A DNA stretch of 64,000 nucleotides from Desulfamplus magnetovallimortis (GTDB lineage Bacteria > Desulfobacterota > Desulfobacteria > Desulfobacterales > Desulfobacteraceae), in NCBI RefSeq assembly GCF_900170035.1, contig NZ_LT828544.1, positions 88,704 to 152,703 of the forward strand. Direction: 5' to 3'. The notes below the pieces were generated by a model, which saw only the letters and a program-made list of their open reading frames with translations, did not search any database and was not told where the DNA came from. The translations under genes and the position numbers were made by a program. Of this stretch, positions 41,223 to 51,374 are shown one piece after another. Numbering within the stretch: position 1 is the stretch's first letter; each line of letters begins with the position of its first letter.

Positions 41223-41795
41223 ATGGAAGATACCATGACCGTATTTACCGCAAGCAAGTACTGCAATGTTTCATCCAAAACCATTATAAACTGGGTGGAT
41301 GCCGGCCATATTAAGGCATACAAAACCGTTGGCGGACACCGCAGAATCCAGAGAAGCGACCTTGAAAAATTCATGGAAAATCAAGGTATCCCCATTCCCG
41401 GCAACCCTGATGAGCAAAGCAGAAAAAAGATCCTTGTGGTGGATGATGATCTCATTATTGTTGAGTCAATTGTCCAGTGCCTTGAGGAGGACGAGTATGA
41501 CTATGAAGTCATATCAGCATCGGATGGATTTGAGGCAGGGCTTCAGGTCAACCATTTCAAGCCTGATCTTCTTATTCTTGATATCATGATGCCTGATATA
41601 AAAGGATATGAGGTGTGTAAAAAGATAAAGAGCACAAAAGAGACAGAGCATATAAAGATTATTGTCCTTTCTGCTTACCTTGATGAGGAAAAATTTCAGC
41701 AGATGAAGGACAACGGTGCAGACCTTTGCCTTTCCAAACCTTTGCCGCTATCCCGTCTAAAGGATGAAGTGGCCACATTACTCGAACTTAAATAA
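41223..41795 (+). CDS. MerR/excisionase-type HTH fused to a receiver domain
   Basis: A 190-residue regulator. Residues 1-55 are a small winged HTH of the excisionase/MerR type (VFTASKYCNVSSKTIINWVDAGHIKAYKTV, GGHRRIQRSDLEKFM). Residues 68-190 are a CheY-like receiver with acidic DDD pocket (LVVDDD), phosphoacceptor Asp in LLILDIMMPDI and Lys in LSKPLPL. AAGGAGGGCGTATCC precedes the ATG, an excellent ribosome-binding site. No kinase is adjacent. The MetF-like gene starts 11 bp after its stop, so it probably regulates or is co-regulated with the methylene-THF reductase cluster. Confidence 0.92.
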   Translation: MEDTMTVFTASKYCNVSSKTIINWVDAGHIKAYKTVGGHRRIQRSDLEKFMENQGIPIPGNPDEQSRKKILVVDDDLIIVESIVQCLEEDEYDYEVISASDGFEAGLQVNHFKPDLLILDIMMPDIKGYEVCKKIKSTKETEHIKIIVLSAYLDEEKFQQMKDNGADLCLSKPLPLSRLKDEVATLLELK

Positions 41796-41806
41796 AGGAG
41801 AATGTC

Positions 41807-42685
41807 ATGAATTTAAAAGAATCCCTGGAAAAAAAGAAATTTGTAGTAACCTCGGAAATCCAGGCTCCCATGGGAGATGACAACCCGGAAGAGCTTGTTG
41901 AGAGCCTTAAAAAAATAAGAGGCAGGGTTGATGGTGTGGCCATATCAGATGTGGAGCTTGAAGGTGTTGTGGGAGACAGTATCCAGACCTGTGATCTTCT
42001 TAACAAAAACAGATTTAATGCCATTTACCAGACAACCACAAGGGACAAAAATCGTTTTCAACTTCAAAAGGATCTCACCCAGGCCCATGAAACAGGTGTT
42101 GAAAATTTGCTTGTATTTACAGAAGATTACCGCATCTCCGGCGACAGCCTTCAGGAGTCCATGTTTTTCCATGTGGATTCCGGCAAACTTGCATCGGTTC
42201 TTGAACACATGAAAAGGGGAGAGACCATTGATGGGCATGCTCTGGAAAAGAAAATCGAATTTGTTCTTGGTTCCGGAGTAGAGACACCATGGGGCAAAAA
42301 TGTTCCTAAAAAAGGGATGGAGGAGATGGAGCAGATGGTGGAAGTTGGTACCGGCTACTTTCTCACAACCCCCATATTTGATGTTGATCAGTTTGAAAAA
42401 TTCATGAAGCAGGTAAATACCTTTGGAGTTCCAGTTATTGCCGAGGTGATGATTCTCAGAACTGCCGGCATGGGCAAATTCTTAAACCGCCATTTCAAGT
42501 CCGGCCTTGTACCTGACTGGGCTATTCAGAAGCTTCTGAAGGCACCTGATAAGACAAAGGCAAGCATTGAGCTTTTTGCTGAAACAGTCAACAATCTTAA
42601 AAACCTCTGCCAGGGAATTCACATTATTACAATTGGTGGAGAGGATAAACTTGCACAATATTTAAATGCAGCAAAATTGAAATAA
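41807..42685 (+). CDS. Methylene-THF reductase family protein (MetF paralog)
   Basis: A 292-residue MTHFR-fold TIM barrel: VVTSEIQAPMGDDNPEELVE, QTTTRDKNRFQLQKDL, NLLVFTEDYRISGD, TTPIFDVDQFEKFM and PVIAEVMILRTAGMGKFLN. It is more diverged than the second MetF at 50442: the usual TRDRN and GD.P segments are altered (TTRDKNR; TEDYRISGD). It could be a subunit or act on another C1-folate. AAAGGAGAATGTC precedes its ATG. It lies in the same direction as the Hdr genes, 185 bp upstream of HdrBC with a family A repeat between. Confidence 0.88.
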   Translation: MNLKESLEKKKFVVTSEIQAPMGDDNPEELVESLKKIRGRVDGVAISDVELEGVVGDSIQTCDLLNKNRFNAIYQTTTRDKNRFQLQKDLTQAHETGVENLLVFTEDYRISGDSLQESMFFHVDSGKLASVLEHMKRGETIDGHALEKKIEFVLGSGVETPWGKNVPKKGMEEMEQMVEVGTGYFLTTPIFDVDQFEKFMKQVNTFGVPVIAEVMILRTAGMGKFLNRHFKSGLVPDWAIQKLLKAPDKTKASIELFAETVNNLKNLCQGIHIITIGGEDKLAQYLNAAKLK

Positions 42686-42870: not shown

Positions 42871-44175
42871 ATGGCAGAGCCAATCAAGCTTGACGAACTC
42901 ATCTGTGAATTCAAGGAGGAGATAGCCGAGCGCATTCCCGATGCAAATTTTGATCTGTGTCTCACCTGTGGTACCTGCACCGGCGGATGTCCTGCATCCG
43001 AACAGTATGATATGGATCCGCGAAAATTTTTGCGGATGCTTCTTCTTGGTATGGATGATGAAATACTTAAAAGCCCGTGGGCATGGGTATGCACAATGTG
43101 CGGAAGATGTCAGTCAGCATGTCCCATGAACATTGCGATTCCAAAATTCATATACAATGTAAGGGCTTCCTGGCCCAGGGATAAAAGACCAAAAGGAATA
43201 AGAGGTTCCTGTGACCAACACATCAAATCCGGTAACGCAATGGGCGTTCCCAAGGAGGATTTTGTCTTCACCGTTGATGATGTGGCTCAGGAGATAAAAG
43301 ATGAACAGCCTGAATTTGAAGATCTTGAAATTACAACTGATCGCCCCGGTGCCTACATGGCCATCAACCAGAACTCAAGGGAACCTGTAACTGAACCTGA
43401 CGAAATGAGTCCACTCTGGAAAATTCTTCATAAAGCCGGTGCAGACTGGACCTATCCCACAGTTATGTGGGGAGGTGAAAACTACTGCATGTTTCTGGCT
43501 GACGATGAAGGGTGGCGATATATCATGGAGGAGTTTGTTCATCACATTGAACATACACTGAAGAGCAAAGTGGTTGTTAACACCGAGTGAGGGCACTCCT
43601 ATTATTCAATCCTGGAAGGATTGCGAAAATACAATATCCCTCATAACTTTGAATTTAAAAGTATCATTGAACTTTATGCACAATGGATAAAAGATGGTAC
43701 CCTGAAGATCAATTCCGACTGGAACAAGGATCTTAAAATAAAATTTACTGTACAGGATCCTTGTAATATCGGGCGAAAAATTGGAACTAACCGCATTGTG
43801 GATGACTTGCGATTTGTTATCAAGGCTGTTGTGGGTGAAGAAAATTTTGTTGATATGGTTCCCAACCGCTCCAATAACTTCTGCTGCGGCGGAGGTGGAG
43901 GTGCCCTTCAGGCAGGTCACACTGACCAGCGGAGAGCCTACGGAAAGGTAAAATTTGACCAGATCATTGAGACCGGAGCCGATTATGTCATAACCCCATG
44001 TCACAACTGTCATGCACAGATAGAGGATATGTGTCACCATTATGGCGGAAAATACTACACCGTGCATCTGTGGACAATCATGTGCCTTGCCATGGGAATT
44101 CTTGGTGAAAACGAACGCACCTATTTAGGACCTGATCTGGCTGACTTTGGATTGACAGAAAAGGAGGAGTCATAA
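42871..44175 (+). CDS. HdrBC-like FeS/CCG-domain subunit, probable selenoprotein
   Basis: A 434-residue heterodisulfide-reductase-like subunit if UGA at 43588-43590 is read as selenocysteine (residue 240). The N-terminal half is HdrC-like with CLTCGTCTGGCP and CTMCGRCQSACP. The C-terminal half is CCG/HdrB-like: NTE-U-GHSYYS, DPCNIGRK, FCCGGGGG and TPCHNCHAQ. The UGA stands where DsrK/HdrD relatives have the Cys of ECGHxY. The frame is continuous across the UGA, no start signal precedes 43621, and a hairpin with UGGAA loop lies 17-33 nt downstream. CAGGAGGGAACATATA precedes the ATG. It overlaps hdrA by one base (TAATG) and should form the Hdr part of the methylene-THF reductase complex. Confidence 0.87.
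43588..43623 (+). promoter_or_regulatory. UGA codon and bSECIS-like hairpin in hdrBC
   Basis: UGA at 43588-43590, then after 16 nt the perfect stem CAATCC / GGATTG (43607-43623) with loop TGGAA. Bacterial SECIS elements are small stem-loops with G in the apical loop, 16-37 nt after UGA; this fits. The other two UGA genes in the window have the same UGG loop. Confidence 0.75.
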
Positions 44176-47100
44176 TGTCGAATTATAAAAAAGACTCTCT
44201 GAGCAACCCCGGTATAAATGATGTCATGGGTTCTGTTATGGTGGTGGGAGCAGGTATTGCTGGAATCCAGGCATCCCTTGATCTTGCGGACTCGGGCTAT
44301 CTTGTTCACCTTGTGGACAGCAACTCGGCCATTGGTGGTGTCATGGCACAGCTTGACAAGACCTTTCCCACAAACGACTGCTCCATGTGTATTATCTCTC
44401 CCAAACTTGTTGAAGCAGGGCGTCATCTCAACATTGAACTTAAAAACATGACCCGTGTAAAAGAGGTTAAGGGTTCTTCTGGCAATTTCACTGTTACACT
44501 TCTTGAACAGCCAAGATTTATAGACCTTGAAAAATGTACTGCCTGTGGTGAGTGTTCAAGTGTCTGCCCTGTGGAGCTTCCAAGCAATTTTGACGAGGGG
44601 CTTGCCACCAGAAAGGCCGCATTTAAACTCTATCCCCAGGCAATGCCAAGTGCCTTTGCCATTGAAAAGGGAGATCGGGCACCCTGCAAGCTCACATGCC
44701 CGGCCGGCCTTAATGTCCAGGGTTATGTGCAGATGGTGAAACAGGGTAAATATAAAGAGGCTCTTGAGATCATCATGGAGCAGCTACCCTTGCCAGGAGT
44801 TCTGGGACGTATCTGTCCCCATGAGTGTGAAAATGCGTGCCGCCGGTGCGAAGTGGACGAGCCAATAGCCATACGGGATCTCAAGCGCCTTGCAGCAGAT
44901 AGCTTTGATGCCCGTGATATAAAGATTAAATGCGCAGAACCCACAGGGAAAAAAGTAGCAATCATCGGTTCAGGCCCTGCTGGACTCTCTGCGGCATACC
45001 ATCTTGCAAAACAGGGTGTGAAAGCCACAATCTTTGAAGCATTGCCACAGGCAGGTGGTATGCTTCGGGTGGGTATTCCGGAACACCGTCTGCCTGCCGA
45101 AGTGCTGGACAGAGACATTGAGGTCATTACCAACCTTGGTGTGGAGATCAGATACAACTCTCCTTTGGGAGCAGATATAACCATTGATTCTCTGCTTAAA
45201 AATCAGGAAAACACGGAAGAAGAGGGTGGAGATAATAATAGTGGAGAAGAGAAGTTTGATGCGGTCTTTCTGGGGATGGGAGCTCACAAAGGCATTGATC
45301 TTGGTATCCCCGGCGATGATCTAAAAGGTGTCTGCCAGGGCGTTGATTACTTAAGGGAACTAAACCTCACCGGTAAAACCCAGACCGGTAAAAAGGTCGC
45401 CATCATAGGTGGCGGAAATGTTGCCATTGATGTGGCGAGAAGTGCCGTGCGTCTCGGTGCTGAAAAGGTGACCATCATCTATCGCAGAACCCGTAATGAG
45501 ATGCCAGCCTGGGAAGAGGAGATCTGTGCTGCCGAAGATGAAGGGGTCGAGATTATCTATCTTTCTGCACCCCAGGAAGCTCTGTCAGACAGCACAAATG
45601 CAATATCTAAACTTCGTTGCATTAAAATGGAGCTTGGCGAACCCGACTCATCAGGAAGACGTCGTCCCATACCAGTTCCAGGCAGTGAATACGATATTGA
45701 AGTGGATCAGCTCATATCCGCCATTGGACAACGTCCTGATATCTCAGCACTGATAGCCGACACAAGCAACAACAATGATATTAAAAGTAGCGATACCAAA
45801 ATCAGCGGTATCAAAACCAGCGATATTAAAACCAGCGATATTAAAACCAGCGTTAATAAAACCAGCGATATAAAGACCGGCGATACCAAAACCAGCGTCA
45901 TCAACATAACCCGCTGGGGCACCACAGAAGTTGATCCCATCACCTTTGAAACCAGTAAAAAAGGTGTATTTGCCGGAGGCGATCTTCAGACAGGCCCAGG
46001 AGTTGCCATATCTGCCATTGCAGCGGGAATGGAGGCTGCTGAATCCATTGTACGCTATATCAAGGGTGAGGATATGCTCCAGGGCAGGAATCAAAACCGG
46101 TTGATTCAGGAGAAACGTCTTCGGGAATCGCCGGACTATATGCCCGAATATACCCCGTTATCAGAAGAGATCCCAAAGGCAAAACGCTCCAGAATTCAGG
46201 AATTGCCACTATCCCAAAGAGTCGGTAATTTTAAGGAAGTTGAGCTTGGATTTGAAGAACAGGAAGGCCAAAAAGAGGCGGCTCGATGTCTCAACTGTGG
46301 TTATTGCTCCGAGTGCATGGAGTGCGTGGATGCCTGTCTTGCAAATGCAGTTGATCACTTCATGATGCCGAAGCTCCACGAAATAAATGTGGGGGCAATT
46401 ATTCTTGCTCCAGGTTTTACACCATTTAATCCATCTCAATATGAAACCTATGGCTATGGCTCAAATCCCAATATAGTCACAAGCATTGAGTTTGAGCGCC
46501 TGCTTTCAGCATCAGGGCCATACAAGGGGCATCTTGTAAGACCTTCAGATGAAAAGGAACCCAGAAAAATAGCATGGCTTCAGTGTGTCGGCTCCCGTGA
46601 TATCAACAAGGGAGATCACAGTTACTGCTCCGGGGTTTGCTGCATGTATGCCAACAAACAGGCTGTTATTGCCAAGGAGCACAGTGACCATGAGCTTGAC
46701 ACAGCCATCTTTTTCATGGACATGAGAACCCACGGCAAAGAGTTTGATAAATACAGCATAAGGGCAGAGGATGAAAGCGGGGTTCGTTTGGTTCGCTCAA
46801 GAATCCACTCTGTATTTCCCATGAAAGATGACAGGCTGCGTCTTGTCTATGCCACAGAATCCGGCTCCACAGCAGAAGAGATATTTGACATGGTGGTTCT
46901 CTCTGTCGGGCTTGCCCCATGTTCTGATGCTGCTGAAATTGCCACTACCATGGGTATTGAGCTCAATCGCCACATGTTTGCAAAAACCCGGAACCTTTTG
47001 CCTGTGAATACAACAAGGGAGGGAATTTTTGTATGTGGAGCATTCCAGGAGCCAAAGGATATTCCAATGTCGGTTATGGAGGCTTCTGCCTCAGCAGCAA

Positions 47101-48935
47101 TGGCAGCCCAAACCCTTGCTTCAAAAAGATGGAGTTTAACCAGAACAAAGGAGCTTCCGCCTGAAAGGGATTTTTCCGGAATGGCTCCCCGCATAGGAGT
47201 TTTTGTATGTAACTGCGGTATAAATATTGGGGGTATTGCCGATGTTCCGGCTGTAAGGGATTATGCTTCCAAACTTCCTTATGTTGTGCATGTGGAGGAT
47301 AATCTTTTCACTTGTTCCCAGGATGCCCAGGATCACATAAAGGAGACAATCATTGAAAAAGATATAAACCGTGTTGTTGTTGCCTCATGCTCTCCGCGTA
47401 CCCATGAAGCACTTTTTCAGGAGACAATAAGGGATGCAGGCCTTAACAAATATCTTTTCGAGATGGCCAATATCCGTGACCAGAATACATGGGTACACAT
47501 GAACCAGCCTGAAAAAGCAACACAAAAGGCAATGGATCTTGTCCGCATGGCTGTTGCCAGGGCTGCATATTCTGAGCCTTTGCATCAGGTGAAACTCTCC
47601 ATTAAAAAATCTGTCCTTGTGGTGGGAGGAGGAGTATCAGGTATAGAAGCTGCCCTTGGTATAGCAGATCAGGGATTTAAGGCTGTTCTTGTGGAAAAAA
47701 GCGGTGTTCTTGGAGGCAATGCACTTAATTTGAGGGCAACCTGGCAGGGTGAAGCTGTAACTCCCTGGCTTGCCCAGCGTATAAGCAGGGTAGAAACCCA
47801 TGAAAACATTGATGTTTATCTTACTTCAGAGGTTACAGCCACAACCGGAAGTCTTGGTAATTTTGTCACCACCATATCTCCTGCCATTCCTGACAATGCA
47901 CCGGAAAAAGTTGCAGATAGATCTGTGGGAAGTGTAACCATTGAGCATGGAGCTACCATAATTGCAACAGGAGGAAAGGAAGATCAGCCAAGGGAGTATC
48001 TCCATGGCACCCATCCTGATGTATTGACCCATCTTGAGATGGATGCTCTTCTCCAAGAGGATGAGGATACAAAAGTTAGCGACAGAAGGCAGAAAAGAAA
48101 CACCAGGATTTCAAAGGCAAAAACCGTGGTCTTTATACAGTGCGTGGGTTCCAGAAACAGTGAAAAACCCTATTGCAGCAAGATCTGCTGTACCCACAGC
48201 CTGAAAAGTGCAATTGAGGTCAAGACAAGAAACCCAAGATCAAAGGTTTTTATCATATACAGAGATATACGTTCATATGGTTTCAGGGAAGAGCTTTACC
48301 AGGAAGCCAGGCAAAAGGGTATAATATTCATACGTTATGATCTTGAAAACCCACCTGTTGTAAAGGCTGAAGTCAAAGATGGCAACAGATTGAAACTTAT
48401 CGTTACGGATCATGTTTTGAGGATGCCTGTGAACCTTGCACCAGATCTGCTGGTGCTTGCAACCGGAATAAAACCAAGTTCCAACAAAAAGCTGTTTGAG
48501 GCATTCAAGATACCTGTAAATGAGGATGGCTTTCTTGTGGAAGCACATGCAAAACTTAGGCCGGTTGACTTTTCATCTGACGGGCTTTTTGTGGCAGGCA
48601 GTGCCCACTATCCAAAACCCCTTGAGGAGTGTATTGCCCAGGCAAAGGCCACTGTATCAAGGGCCATGAGAATTGTGTCCAGGGATTCAATCATGGTGGG
48701 AGGTGTTGTTGCCGTTGTTGAGCCTGAAAAGTGTGCAGTGTGTCTTACATGTGTCAGAACCTGTCCCTATGAAATTCCATATATCCACGAGGATGGATAT
48801 GCGGTGATTGATGCGGCAGAGTGTCATGGTTGCGGCCTGTGCGTTTCTGAATGCCCGGGCAAGGCCATTAAACTCAATAACTTTACCGATGAACAGATCA
48901 TTGCAAAGACCAATGCACTTTTCAAGGTTGCCTGA
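44175..48935 (+). CDS. Giant HdrA-NfnB-HdrA flavoprotein
   Basis: A 1586-residue electron-transfer flavoprotein. Order: HdrA FAD motif VVGAGIAGIQASLDL (about 24) with the HdrA cysteine segment DCSMCIISPK; a ferredoxin motif CTACGECSSVCP; then an inserted NfnB/GltD-like NAD(P)H module (CKLTCPAGLNVQGYV, ICPHECENACRR, GSGPAGLSAAYHLA, GGGNVAIDVARSA) to about residue 640; HdrA second part with CLNCGYCSECMECVDAC; a second HdrA unit from about 1010 (VFVCNCGINIGG, VVGGGVSGIEAAL); and a terminal 2x[4Fe-4S] motif CAVCLTCVRTCP, CHGCGLCVSECP. This supplies several flavin sites and NAD(P)H and ferredoxin ports for electron bifurcation. A 15-bp minisatellite lies inside the NAD(P)H module. Neighbours MvhD, HdrBC and MetVF are its expected partners. 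Confidence 0.92.
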   Translation: MSNYKKDSLSNPGINDVMGSVMVVGAGIAGIQASLDLADSGYLVHLVDSNSAIGGVMAQLDKTFPTNDCSMCIISPKLVEAGRHLNIELKNMTRVKEVKGSSGNFTVTLLEQPRFIDLEKCTACGECSSVCPVELPSNFDEGLATRKAAFKLYPQAMPSAFAIEKGDRAPCKLTCPAGLNVQGYVQMVKQGKYKEALEIIMEQLPLPGVLGRICPHECENACRRCEVDEPIAIRDLKRLAADSFDARDIKIKCAEPTGKKVAIIGSGPAGLSAAYHLAKQGVKATIFEALPQAGGMLRVGIPEHRLPAEVLDRDIEVITNLGVEIRYNSPLGADITIDSLLKNQENTEEEGGDNNSGEEKFDAVFLGMGAHKGIDLGIPGDDLKGVCQGVDYLRELNLTGKTQTGKKVAIIGGGNVAIDVARSAVRLGAEKVTIIYRRTRNEMPAWEEEICAAEDEGVEIIYLSAPQEALSDSTNAISKLRCIKMELGEPDSSGRRRPIPVPGSEYDIEVDQLISAIGQRPDISALIADTSNNNDIKSSDTKISGIKTSDIKTSDIKTSVNKTSDIKTGDTKTSVINITRWGTTEVDPITFETSKKGVFAGGDLQTGPGVAISAIAAGMEAAESIVRYIKGEDMLQGRNQNRLIQEKRLRESPDYMPEYTPLSEEIPKAKRSRIQELPLSQRVGNFKEVELGFEEQEGQKEAARCLNCGYCSECMECVDACLANAVDHFMMPKLHEINVGAIILAPGFTPFNPSQYETYGYGSNPNIVTSIEFERLLSASGPYKGHLVRPSDEKEPRKIAWLQCVGSRDINKGDHSYCSGVCCMYANKQAVIAKEHSDHELDTAIFFMDMRTHGKEFDKYSIRAEDESGVRLVRSRIHSVFPMKDDRLRLVYATESGSTAEEIFDMVVLSVGLAPCSDAAEIATTMGIELNRHMFAKTRNLLPVNTTREGIFVCGAFQEPKDIPMSVMEASASAAMAAQTLASKRWSLTRTKELPPERDFSGMAPRIGVFVCNCGINIGGIADVPAVRDYASKLPYVVHVEDNLFTCSQDAQDHIKETIIEKDINRVVVASCSPRTHEALFQETIRDAGLNKYLFEMANIRDQNTWVHMNQPEKATQKAMDLVRMAVARAAYSEPLHQVKLSIKKSVLVVGGGVSGIEAALGIADQGFKAVLVEKSGVLGGNALNLRATWQGEAVTPWLAQRISRVETHENIDVYLTSEVTATTGSLGNFVTTISPAIPDNAPEKVADRSVGSVTIEHGATIIATGGKEDQPREYLHGTHPDVLTHLEMDALLQEDEDTKVSDRRQKRNTRISKAKTVVFIQCVGSRNSEKPYCSKICCTHSLKSAIEVKTRNPRSKVFIIYRDIRSYGFREELYQEARQKGIIFIRYDLENPPVVKAEVKDGNRLKLIVTDHVLRMPVNLAPDLLVLATGIKPSSNKKLFEAFKIPVNEDGFLVEAHAKLRPVDFSSDGLFVAGSAHYPKPLEECIAQAKATVSRAMRIVSRDSIMVGGVVAVVEPEKCAVCLTCVRTCPYEIPYIHEDGYAVIDAAECHGCGLCVSECPGKAIKLNNFTDEQIIAKTNALFKVA
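45770..45905 (+). repeat. In-frame 15-bp minisatellite within hdrA
   Basis: About nine imperfect copies of GATATTAAAACCAGC, encoding DIKTS repeats (SDTKISGIKTSDIKTS and onward). They fall in a surface loop of the GltD/NfnB-like domain between the ISAIGQRPD and TRWGTTEVDP motifs, where relatives have only a few residues. All copies keep frame, so length could vary between strains without destroying the protein. Confidence 0.9.
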
Positions 48936-48972: not shown

Positions 48973-49416
48973 ATGATTGATAATTTTGAACCCAGAATCA
49001 TCGCCTTCTGCTGCCAGTATTGAGCATATGCAGCCGGGGACCTGGCAGGTTCCATGAGACTGAACTATCCATCAGAGGTAAAGGTGATTCAGGTGCCCTG
49101 CACCGGAAGGGTGGATATAATTCATCTGTTAAATGCCGTTGAAAAGGGTGCTGACGGTGTTTATGTGGCAGGTTGCCTTGAAGGAGAGTGCCACTATCTT
49201 ACAGGAAATATAAAAACAAGAAAAAAAGTTGAATATGTCAAAAAAATACTGGGGGAGATCGGCATTGAGCCTGAAAGGGTGGAGATGTACAATCTATCAT
49301 CGGCACAGGGGGCAAGATTTGCAGAAATTGCCCGGGAAATGACCGCGAAAATCAGGGAACTTGGCCCTTCTCCTGTAAGGATGAATGATCCTGTAAGTGA
49401 AAAAAAAGCTGCATAA
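48973..49416 (+). CDS. mvhD: MvhD-like delta subunit, probable selenoprotein
   Basis: A 147-residue MvhD/FlpD protein if UGA at 49021-49023 (codon 17) is selenocysteine. The sequence reads AFCCQY-U-AYAAGDLAGSMRLNYP, aligning the UGA with the second Cys of the CCNWCSYAGADLAG motif of methanogen MvhD; the homolog VhuD is a known selenoprotein. Downstream PCTGRVD, GCLEGECHYLTGN complete the [2Fe-2S] site. The ATG has GGAGGTAAATC before it, whereas no plausible start exists after the UGA at a domain border. A GGC-loop hairpin follows the UGA. It accepts electrons from HdrA-linked donors and lies 37 bp after hdrA. Confidence 0.9.
49021..49053 (+). promoter_or_regulatory. UGA codon and bSECIS-like hairpin in mvhD
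   Basis: UGA at 49021-49023, then after 13 nt a 7-bp stem GGGACCT / AGGTTCC (49037-49053; one G-U pair) with loop GGC, which becomes UGGCA if the top pair opens. Distance and loop guanines agree with a bacterial SECIS. Confidence 0.72.
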
Positions 49417-49651: not shown

Positions 49652-50320
49652 ATGATAGTAGCAGACCGTAAATCTCTTGAAGAAATACAAGAAATGATAA
49701 AACCCCATCGCAAGCTCCTGATTGTGGGATGCAAGGGGTGTGTAACCGTCTGCAATGTGGGAGGCTCAAAAGAGGTTGAAATTCTGGCCTCAGCCCTTAC
49801 CATTGCCAGAAAAAAAGAGAATAACGAGATCGAAATTGATACCACCACCATTGAACGGCAGTGCGATAATGAGTATGTCTCCCAACTCAAAGAGACAGTA
49901 GGTAACTACGATGCCGTTTTATCCATGGCCTGTGGTGTGGGGCCCCAGTTTTTGTCGGAATACTACAGGGAGCAAAAATTTTATCCAGCAGTGAATACCA
50001 CCTTTTTCGGGGGAGCTGTATCCCATGGTATCTGGGAGGAGAGATGCGCCGGATGTGGTACATGTATCATCCACGATTTTGATGGAATATGCCCCATAGC
50101 AAGGTGTGCCAAAAGTCTTCTTCACGGACCATGTGGCGGCTCATCTAATGGATTGTGCGAAATATCAAAGGAGACCATATGCATCTGGGATGCCATTGTT
50201 GCCAAAAAAATAGAGCAGGGAAGGCTTGAGGATCTTCTCAAGGTACGACCTGCCAAGGATTGGAGAACAGCAAGGGACGGTGGCCCGAGACGCAGTATCA
50301 GGGAGGAGCTTACCCGTTAA
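49652..50320 (+). CDS. metV: MetV: zinc/FeS subunit of methylene-THF reductase
   Basis: A 222-residue protein of the MTHFR C-terminal (MetV) family found with MetF in acetogens and other Wood-Ljungdahl organisms. Motifs: VGCKGCVTVCNVGG near the N-terminus, MACGVGPQFLSE, CAGCGTC and DGICPIARCAKSLLHGPCGG, a cysteine-rich segment typical of the family, and GLCEISKETICIWDAIV. MetV is thought to link MetF to the electron-supplying Hdr/MvhD module. An AAGAGGTGAATC sequence precedes the ATG. Its MetF partner follows 121 bp downstream. Confidence 0.92.
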   Translation: MIVADRKSLEEIQEMIKPHRKLLIVGCKGCVTVCNVGGSKEVEILASALTIARKKENNEIEIDTTTIERQCDNEYVSQLKETVGNYDAVLSMACGVGPQFLSEYYREQKFYPAVNTTFFGGAVSHGIWEERCAGCGTCIIHDFDGICPIARCAKSLLHGPCGGSSNGLCEISKETICIWDAIVAKKIEQGRLEDLLKVRPAKDWRTARDGGPRRSIREELTR

Positions 50321-50441: not shown

Positions 50442-51374
50442 ATGAGTGAACTCAAATCAGGCAGCAATCTTGAAAAAGTCCTTAAGGCGGGACACTTTGC
50501 ATTCACAGGGGAGTGCGGCCCCCCAAAAGGGGCAAATGTGGAGCATCTTGTGGGAAAGTTTAAGCATCTCAAAGGCAATGTTGACGCTGTCAACATGACG
50601 GATAACCAGACCGCTGTGGTGAGAATGTCAAGCCTTGCAGCATCGCATATCATGATCCATGAAGGTCTTGAACCAAACTTTCAGATGGTTTGCCGTGACA
50701 GAAATCGCCTTGCCATTACAGCAGATATACTTGGCGCACATGCACTTGGAATCCGTAACATGCTATGCCTTTCCGGCGACCATCAATCCTTTGGCAACCA
50801 TCCCCAGGCCAAAAATGTCCATGACATAGATTCAATGCAGCTCATCAACCTTGTTACCACCATGCGTGACAAGGAGGAGTTCATAAATGGCGAAAAAATT
50901 GATGTTGCCCCCAAACTTTTTGTGGGAGCTGCCTGCAATCCCTTTGCAGATCCCTTTGAATACCGTGTCTATCGCCTTGCCAACAAAATTGCGGCAGGGG
51001 CAGACTTTATTCAGACCCAATGCATATATAATATGGAGAAATTCAGGACATTCATGAAACAGGTTGTGGATATGGGGCTTCACGAAAAATGCTATATCCT
51101 TGCAGGGGTAACCCCAATGAAAAATGCAAGAATGGCAAACTTTATGTCAAAGTTTGTGCCTGGAATGGATGTGCCAGATTCATTGATTGATCGCCTGAAA
51201 GGAGCAGAAAAAGGTAAACAGGCAGAGGAAGGTATTAAGTTTGCCCTGGAACAGATCGAGGAGTTCAAGGAGATGGAGGGTATTGCCGGAGTGCATCTGA
51301 TGGCGATTGAGTGGGAGCATATGGTGCCTGAAATTGCCGAGAGGGCAGGGGTGTTGCCGCGTCCGGTTGTTTAA
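50442..51374 (+). CDS. metF: Methylenetetrahydrofolate reductase MetF
   Basis: A 310-residue MetF with canonical family features: FTGECGPPKGAN, VNMTDNQTAVVRMSS, QMVCRDRNRLA, NMLCLSGDHQSFGNHP, VGAACNPFADP, ADFIQTQCIYN and AGVTPMKNARMANFM. It interconverts methylene- and methyl-THF in the methyl branch of the Wood-Ljungdahl pathway. The ATG follows AAGGAGAGTGAACA. Following MetV, Hdr and MvhD genes, it matches the Moorella-type MetVF-HdrABC-MvhD arrangement. The stop is almost directly joined to a left-truncated family D element. Confidence 0.95.
   Translation: MSELKSGSNLEKVLKAGHFAFTGECGPPKGANVEHLVGKFKHLKGNVDAVNMTDNQTAVVRMSSLAASHIMIHEGLEPNFQMVCRDRNRLAITADILGAHALGIRNMLCLSGDHQSFGNHPQAKNVHDIDSMQLINLVTTMRDKEEFINGEKIDVAPKLFVGAACNPFADPFEYRVYRLANKIAAGADFIQTQCIYNMEKFRTFMKQVVDMGLHEKCYILAGVTPMKNARMANFMSKFVPGMDVPDSLIDRLKGAEKGKQAEEGIKFALEQIEEFKEMEGIAGVHLMAIEWEHMVPEIAERAGVLPRPVV

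Follow-up and report, generated by a model that had tools for sequence, protein, structure and literature searches.

A predicted selenocysteine in an HdrD-type Fe-S subunit of a MetF-linked Hdr operon in Desulfamplus magnetovallimortis

In Desulfamplus magnetovallimortis, a TGA lies within a frame encoding an HdrD-type Fe-S protein that stays open on both sides of it, which raises the question of whether this codon ends the gene or is read as selenocysteine (Sec) and, in the latter case, what the residue could do. The stretch of DNA analysed (the window) has 64,000 nucleotides and corresponds to C5:88704-152703 of a genome of 6.68 Mb in 108 contigs. An earlier note on this stretch had placed the UGA at 43588, residue 240, in a frame open on both sides, and these coordinates proved exact: in the frame 42871-44175, the sole in-frame stop before the TAA at 44173-44175 is the TGA at 43588-43590, in the context NTE-U-GHSYY. 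Gene callers taking UGA as a stop would cut the gene in two, and what is likely a core part of the Hdr/MetF electron path of sulfate reducers is therefore easily misannotated. The features that bear on the decoding of the codon are the following:

42871..44175, + strand: HdrD-type (fused HdrC + HdrB-like) Fe-S gene for a predicted selenoprotein of 434 aa with Sec240 (TGA-read-through translation, Pfam, homologues)
43588..43590, + strand: predicted UGA codon for Sec240, motif NTE-U-GH (column TGA/TGC/TGT in 127/127; Sec machinery in the genome)
43607..43623, + strand: bacterial SECIS-like hairpin, stem 43607-43613 / 43617-43623, apical loop 43614-43616 (GGA)

Homologues of the protein were matched in 151/194 genomes at E <=1e-60 and in 37/297 genomes at E <=1e-100, with codons checked in a sample of at most 30 loci per search; 80/202 related stretches were taken in for this check. 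The nearest named relatives at the locus were Desulfamplus MAGs (86-89% identity) and Desulfocicer vacuolatum (84%). From a first set of 118 matches, the 114 with a span >380 residues were kept, and these near-full-length homologues carried TGA (81), TGC (26) or TGT (7) at column 240. The four dropped were partial matches in the tandem loci L102 and L103, a distant second copy in L095, and L105, with TGA, TGA, TGA and TGC, respectively. Merging for identity brought the first set to 103 rows (75 TGA, 28 Cys), and 27/28 of the Cys rows entered the table of hairpin pairs, which is without L104. An enlarged set that included a phylum-wide sample (E <=1e-80, span of at least 360) gave 145 matches, 143 of them long enough, and 127 non-redundant homologues after merging; it includes the distant second copy in L095, excludes L104 and L105, and may retain non-identical records of one organism. 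Here codon 240 was TGA in 93, TGC in 27 and TGT in 7 homologues, and no other codon was found, so that the Cys/Sec alternation proposed as a check was recovered in full. Each Sec gene had a single in-frame TGA in the aligned span, in the first set (81/81) as in the enlarged one (93/93). In the TGC gene L046 the aligned span also includes a single TGA, which lies three codons before the match ends and is probably the gene's own stop. L144, scored as having two TGA in the genome search, has one only in the aligned span. Since Cys occupies column 240 in 34/127 homologues, Sec is not essential at this position.

Bacterial SECIS elements are hairpins shortly 3' of the UGA, within a permitted distance of it, with a G in the apical loop. 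Such a hairpin, conserved in the Sec genes, was found in the window. Its six-pair stem CAATCC/GGATTG (43607-43612 / 43618-43623), with the loop TGGAA, begins after a spacing of 16 nt (43591-43606), exactly as had been read earlier, and an optional seventh pair U-A closes the stem to a GGA loop. Folding energy of the single sequence is unremarkable (z = -0.72; 44/200 shuffles fold equally well) and was set aside as uninformative. When the downstream codons of the window were shuffled synonymously, the same six pairs arose in 182/20,000 shuffles and some SECIS-like hairpin in 645/20,000. Across genes, all six pairs recur with unchanged spacing in 90/93 TGA genes, where synonymous shuffling predicts 2.8, and in 1/34 Cys genes, where it predicts 0.5. 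The Sec genes without them are L059, L088 and the distant second copy in L095; the apical loop starts with G in 93/93. In an alignment built from 47 Sec sequences, of which 46 are distinct, 99.4% of cells are paired, and double-sided changes are found at 2/7 pairs (A-U/G-C/U-A and U-A/G-C/A-U). None of 500 shuffles and no slid register attained the covariation score. Two weaker measures were reached more often, namely the number of doubly changed pairs (2), by 331/500 shuffles, and that of further pair types (7), by 38/500. It is thus the comparison across genes, and not folding energy alone, that places the hairpin beyond chance. The SECIS search proposed in the earlier note therefore yielded a covarying SECIS-like hairpin in the TGA genes, absent from the Cys genes save one.

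The hairpin also appears to leave its mark on the coding sequence. Residue 250 is Gly in 93/93 Sec proteins and is encoded by GGA in 84 of these genes, against 8 of the 24 Cys genes having Gly there, and codon choice at the hairpin, judged from these counts, follows the RNA. At residue 248 (codon 43612-43614) the RNA signal is accompanied by a change in the protein, with Leu, Arg or Gln in 93/93 Sec proteins and Trp or Tyr in 31/34 Cys proteins. Only one Cys gene, the TGC member L040, still shows the full set of six pairs where a SECIS would lie. Since synonymous chance alone would produce about 0.5 of these among the 34 Cys genes, we do not claim a fossil SECIS in L040.

The genome contains the complete Sec machinery, which had been named as a further check: selA (596 bits), selB (361 bits), selD (370 bits) and the tRNA-Sec gene selC (76.6 bits) were all found above their curated cut-offs. 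The selD match at C7:116941-117864 (L017) itself includes one in-frame TGA, and its product is therefore probably a Sec protein too. With the codon tally, the presence of the hairpin in Sec but not in Cys genes, its covariation and the four sel genes in agreement, the UGA at 43588 is almost certainly decoded as selenocysteine by SelA/B/C/D via the hairpin at 43607-43623. That this selenocysteine belongs to an HdrD-type subunit is very probable.

To place the Sec and Cys forms relative to each other, a tree of 103 proteins was computed in a quick IQ-TREE run, with SH-aLRT as the one measure of branch support. Sec rows group with Sec rows and Cys rows with Cys rows: 4 changes of the label suffice on this tree, no fewer than 3 of them on starred branches, where shuffled labels require 24.9. 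Two Cys proteins, L125 and L130, fall with the clade of the window and keep the gene order response regulator-MetF-HdrD-HdrL. The same gene therefore occurs with Sec and with Cys, and the occurrence of the same operon in both forms amounts to a natural experiment. The genome of Desulfamplus magnetovallimortis itself also encodes a tandem pair of Sec copies (C7:254665 and C7:256440, in L149, C7:245000-264000), with about 56-59% identity to the protein of the window, one Cys copy (C2:149834, in L148, C2:138000-157000) and two more remote Cys relatives in which the motif reads ECGH (L104, L105). In the 19-kb stretches around the other three copies, no match to HdrL, FlpD, MetF or MetV was found. 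The Cys paralogue in L148 adjoins what we take, by eye, to be the small and large subunits of a [NiFe] hydrogenase and a maturation protease. Elsewhere, the distant second HdrD-like gene of L095 (near 12777, 37% identity) has TGA at the same column, in the context LLWPE-U-GHAY; the six hairpin pairs are missing from their usual columns.

We then considered which family the protein belongs to. Pfam recognizes a two-cluster ferredoxin domain (Fer4_8/Fer4_17) at residues 28-88 and a CCG domain at 293-384. This is the plan of HdrD, in which a single chain carries a two-cluster ferredoxin domain and, after it, one or more CCG domains. The protein is HdrD-type in the loose sense used for Desulfobacterium autotrophicum in the consulted part of PMC2702500. 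NCBIfam scores are far under the cut-offs for GlpC (TIGR03379, 48.2 bits vs 279.9) and under the equivalog cut-offs for HmcF (175.3 bits vs 750), TmcB (167.3 bits vs 735) and DsrK (110.8 bits vs 400), and the protein is therefore none of these. The motif of the Fe-S oxidoreductase-like family (GlpC/PTHR43551, UGH) is present as U240-G241-H242, and the column of U240 holds Sec in 93 homologues and Cys in 34. An HdrB with two noncubane clusters was rejected as well, for the first CCG domain is without its full five Cys while the second is complete in 127/127. The chain thus has a two-cluster domain like that of HdrC, followed by two CCG domains, of which the first is degenerate and retains Sec240 and His242 and the second is intact, with five Cys.

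An AlphaFold2 model built on 46 sequences (pLDDT 86, pTM 0.86) gave EtfD (9ojn) as its best structural match (Z 24.0, 365 residues, 2.9 A), followed by HdrB chains (Z 19.3-20.1), a LutA model (19.2) and the Helicobacter protein 3kwl (18.9). Foldseek was also run on the model. In these structural comparisons HdrC chains were matched more weakly than HdrB chains, and no DsrK structure was among the structural and profile matches listed. According to the consulted part of PMC13083937, EtfD holds a linear [3Fe-4S] cluster by Cys503, 538, 581 and 584 and a noncubane cluster by Cys637, 672, 673, 709 and 712 together with His583, which caps the noncubane cluster and renders it non-catalytic. In a profile alignment counted by hand, residues 240, 241, 242 and 243 correspond to Cys581, Pro582, His583 and Cys584, and Cys298, 338, 339, 377 and 380 to EtfD 637, 672, 673, 709 and 712. 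Among the 127 homologues, His242, the five Cys of the second domain and the eight N-terminal Cys are invariant. Three of the four linear-cluster positions are never Cys: residue 160 is Gly, Asp or Asn, 193 is Trp and 243 is Ser, Glu, Val, Ala, Met or Ile. The pairing of residue 160 with Cys503 is the loosest part of the EtfD alignment, but the nearby residue 166 (Asn, Ser or Thr) is not Cys either. Taken together, the alignment suggests that the cluster of the first CCG domain has apparently been lost here and, because the other three positions are never Cys, that Sec240 looks like the remnant of the lost cluster site, two residues from the position of the His that caps the noncubane cluster. 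The description of the UGA as lying at a CCG-domain cysteine thus holds insofar as Sec240 stands where the first, degenerate CCG domain would have a cluster ligand, but the Pfam CCG match itself is entirely downstream of it. Cys206, kept in 126/127, could at a guess be a partner of Sec240.

The surroundings of the gene offer a second approach to its role. Besides the gene itself, the block contains:

41223..41795, + strand: MerR-type HTH + response-regulator protein, first gene of the block (Pfam HTH_17, Response_reg)
41807..42685, + strand: MetF-like protein (MTHFR family), immediately 5' of the selenoprotein gene (PF02219, 73 bits)
44175..48935, + strand: HdrL-type giant HdrA, 1586 aa (Pyr_redox_2 in 4 stretches, Fer4_20, Fer4, Fer4_21)
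48973..49416, + strand: FlpD/MvhD subunit, Sec candidate with TGA 49021-49023 (PF02662; hairpin, codon tally)
49652..50320, + strand: MetV-like protein (PF12225, methylene-tetrahydrofolate reductase C terminal)
50442..51374, + strand: second, different MetF-like protein (MTHFR family; PF02219, 154.7 bits)

The order is therefore response regulator-MetF-HdrD(Sec)-HdrL-FlpD(Sec)-MetV-MetF, and the ATG of HdrL overlaps the TAA of the selenoprotein gene by one base. Judged from its Pfam pattern, HdrL would begin and end with HdrA-like parts and carry a GltD/NfnB-like NAD(P)H part in the middle. The clade of the window comprises 21 named loci. Sixteen of these extend 2 kb or more upstream, and all 16 have the regulator and the first MetF there (matches >60% identity); with the same upstream length they were found in 0/17 Cys loci and 0/35 other Sec loci. 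This absence, which extends to the paralogues, indicates that the family is not tied to MetF. Where about 8 kb was available on both sides, HdrA/HdrL, FlpD and MetV were present in 9/9, 8/9 and 6/9 loci of the window clade, in 12/15, 12/15 and 0/15 Cys loci and in 7/18, 8/18 and 4/18 other Sec loci, with some MetF-like match in 3/18 of the latter.

The single Hdr operon of the window is flanked by two different genes of the MTHFR family, scoring 73 and 154.7 bits, and the MetF after MetV has 22-25% identity to the first in most related loci. The first of the two, a putative MetF, is tied to the selenoprotein. In FlpD, the TGA at 49021-49023 (context FCCQYU-AYAAGDL) is followed by a hairpin in what is a known Sec family, and the same column across loci has TGA in 24, TGC in 28, TGT in 7 and other codons in 6. 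Four loci (L031, L032, L035, L036) have Cys in FlpD while HdrD keeps Sec. Genes of the metF, metV, mvhD and hdrA types thus stand in one cluster, as in Met complexes. A Met complex with separate hdrB and hdrC and a catalytic two-CCG HdrB was rejected, for the two are fused here and one CCG domain is degenerate. The product is most likely a subunit of an Hdr-MvhD-MetF complex, and gene order alone suggests that the complex would handle the electrons of methyl-/methylene-THF.

Could the UGA have a meaning other than Sec? A true stop, a sequencing error or a pseudogene scar would account for the codon itself and for nothing further. With TGA in the same column of 93/127 homologues, open on both sides, TGC or TGT in the rest, a hairpin that covaries and a complete Sec machinery, this explanation has practically no probability left, and the conservation of codon and hairpin equally rules out a frameshift at 43588. 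It is also conceivable that the UGA acts as a selenium-dependent switch, low selenium yielding a purposeful, stable HdrC-like half of 239 residues. That half does hold a complete two-cluster ferredoxin domain (Pfam 28-88). However, the whole conserved CCG domain follows the UGA, its invariant residues do not differ between Sec and Cys genes, and the Cys versions are without such a stop, which makes a switch highly improbable.

Accepting Sec240 as the residue, we propose that electrons would run between HdrL/FlpD and the selenoprotein subunit, where two cubane clusters (Cys30/33/36/40 and Cys74/77/80/84) would carry them to the single noncubane [4Fe-4S] cluster of the second CCG domain (Cys298, 338, 339, 377, 380). 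The first CCG domain, having lost its own cluster, would keep Sec240 and His242 facing the noncubane site, and in the likeliest reading Sec240 would be a redox-active selenolate working with the single noncubane cluster. It might either split a disulfide/polysulfide-type or protein-thiol substrate, replacing the second cluster of HdrB, or bind the open iron of the noncubane cluster. The probability of such catalytic or ligating chemistry beside the noncubane cluster falls slightly short of one half. The competing model makes Sec240 part of an EtfD-like electron wire and nothing more: the residue would ligate the noncubane cluster or lie close to it, tuning the potential or protecting the cluster, and disulfide chemistry would not occur. 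His242 aligns with His583, the capping residue that makes the EtfD cluster non-catalytic, and because the same His is invariant here, chemistry at Sec240 can be put forward only tentatively and the wire is given appreciable weight, though also below even odds. This point favours an electron relay over disulfide chemistry. The replacement of Sec by Cys in 34/127 homologues, also within the same operon, points in the same direction. Against a mere relay, Sec240 aligns with Cys581, a ligand of the lost cluster and not of the noncubane one, and Sec/Cys240 and His242 persist even though the other three lost-cluster positions hold no Cys, which suggests a role of their own. A bolder version of the proposed chemistry, in which Sec has replaced one of the two noncubane clusters of the heterodisulfide-reductase site to form a hybrid site of selenolate and one noncubane cluster acting on a disulfide, trisulfide or protein thiol in a MetF-linked bifurcating complex, seems unlikely to us, at about one chance in four. 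In this version the complex would have an extra acceptor.

The claim that Sec forms are known in the HdrD/GlpC class is borne out by the literature, which in the parts consulted had already predicted this family as selenoproteins. Zhang et al. 2006 (PMC1794560) describe five Sec-containing GlpC proteins and an operon glpC-hdrA-frhD-frhG-frhA, and a 2026 review (PMC13188914) lists an Fe-S oxidoreductase-like family (PTHR43551, motif UGH) as a high-confidence prediction, counting it among selenoproteins with largely uncharacterised functions. The protein described here shares with this family the Sec in U-G-H, the occurrence in Deltaproteobacteria and the adjoining HdrA and FrhD/MvhD genes, and is likened to it by motif and setting; the published operon, as far as these sources describe it, is hydrogenase-linked, whereas the one of the window has MetF/MetV and a giant HdrL. 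For D. autotrophicum HRM2, the consulted part of PMC2702500 reports HdrD4, a Sec-containing soluble HdrD with HdrC and HdrB domains, and HdrL followed by mvhD, both features shared with the window. Given these precedents, the Sec call adds a further member to a known family, and we regard the selenoprotein as a solid new example of it in a one-carbon-metabolism operon. What appears to be new is a hairpin that covaries, set against Cys genes as controls, together with the interchange of Sec and Cys within a single operon, the clade linked to MetF and the assignment of UGH to ligand positions of EtfD. In a search mostly outside the subscription literature, we found no published description of a MetF-linked Sec-HdrD as such, nor of the hairpin with Cys controls, the swap or the mapping.

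Comparison with the HdrABC-MvhD-MetVF complexes of Moorella and Chloroflexi, as presented in the consulted parts of PMC6085437 and PMC5736913, shows the same association of MetF, MetV, MvhD and HdrA-type genes; PMC6085437 calls one acceptor of the complex yet to be identified. Chloroflexi DscP3 has a fused hdrBC, metF_1 and an adjoining two-component system, so that the fusion and the regulator by metF are as in the window. Different here are the degenerate Sec-bearing CCG domain, the HdrL fusion as HdrA and an MvhD that is a Sec candidate. Methanogen HdrB (5odc) is alike in fold (Z 19.3; other HdrB chains to 20.1) and in its intact second CCG domain, but has two noncubane clusters where our protein has one CCG domain without its cysteines. 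Mycobacterium smegmatis EtfD (9ojn), the best structural match, shares the ligands of the second CCG domain and the capping His. EtfD, however, is a membrane-bound protein with a linear [3Fe-4S] cluster in its first CCG domain, and of the four ligand positions of that cluster only one is left here, as Sec or Cys. Tying the UGH motif to this solved relative makes the role of Sec, whether relay ligand or active selenolate, testable.
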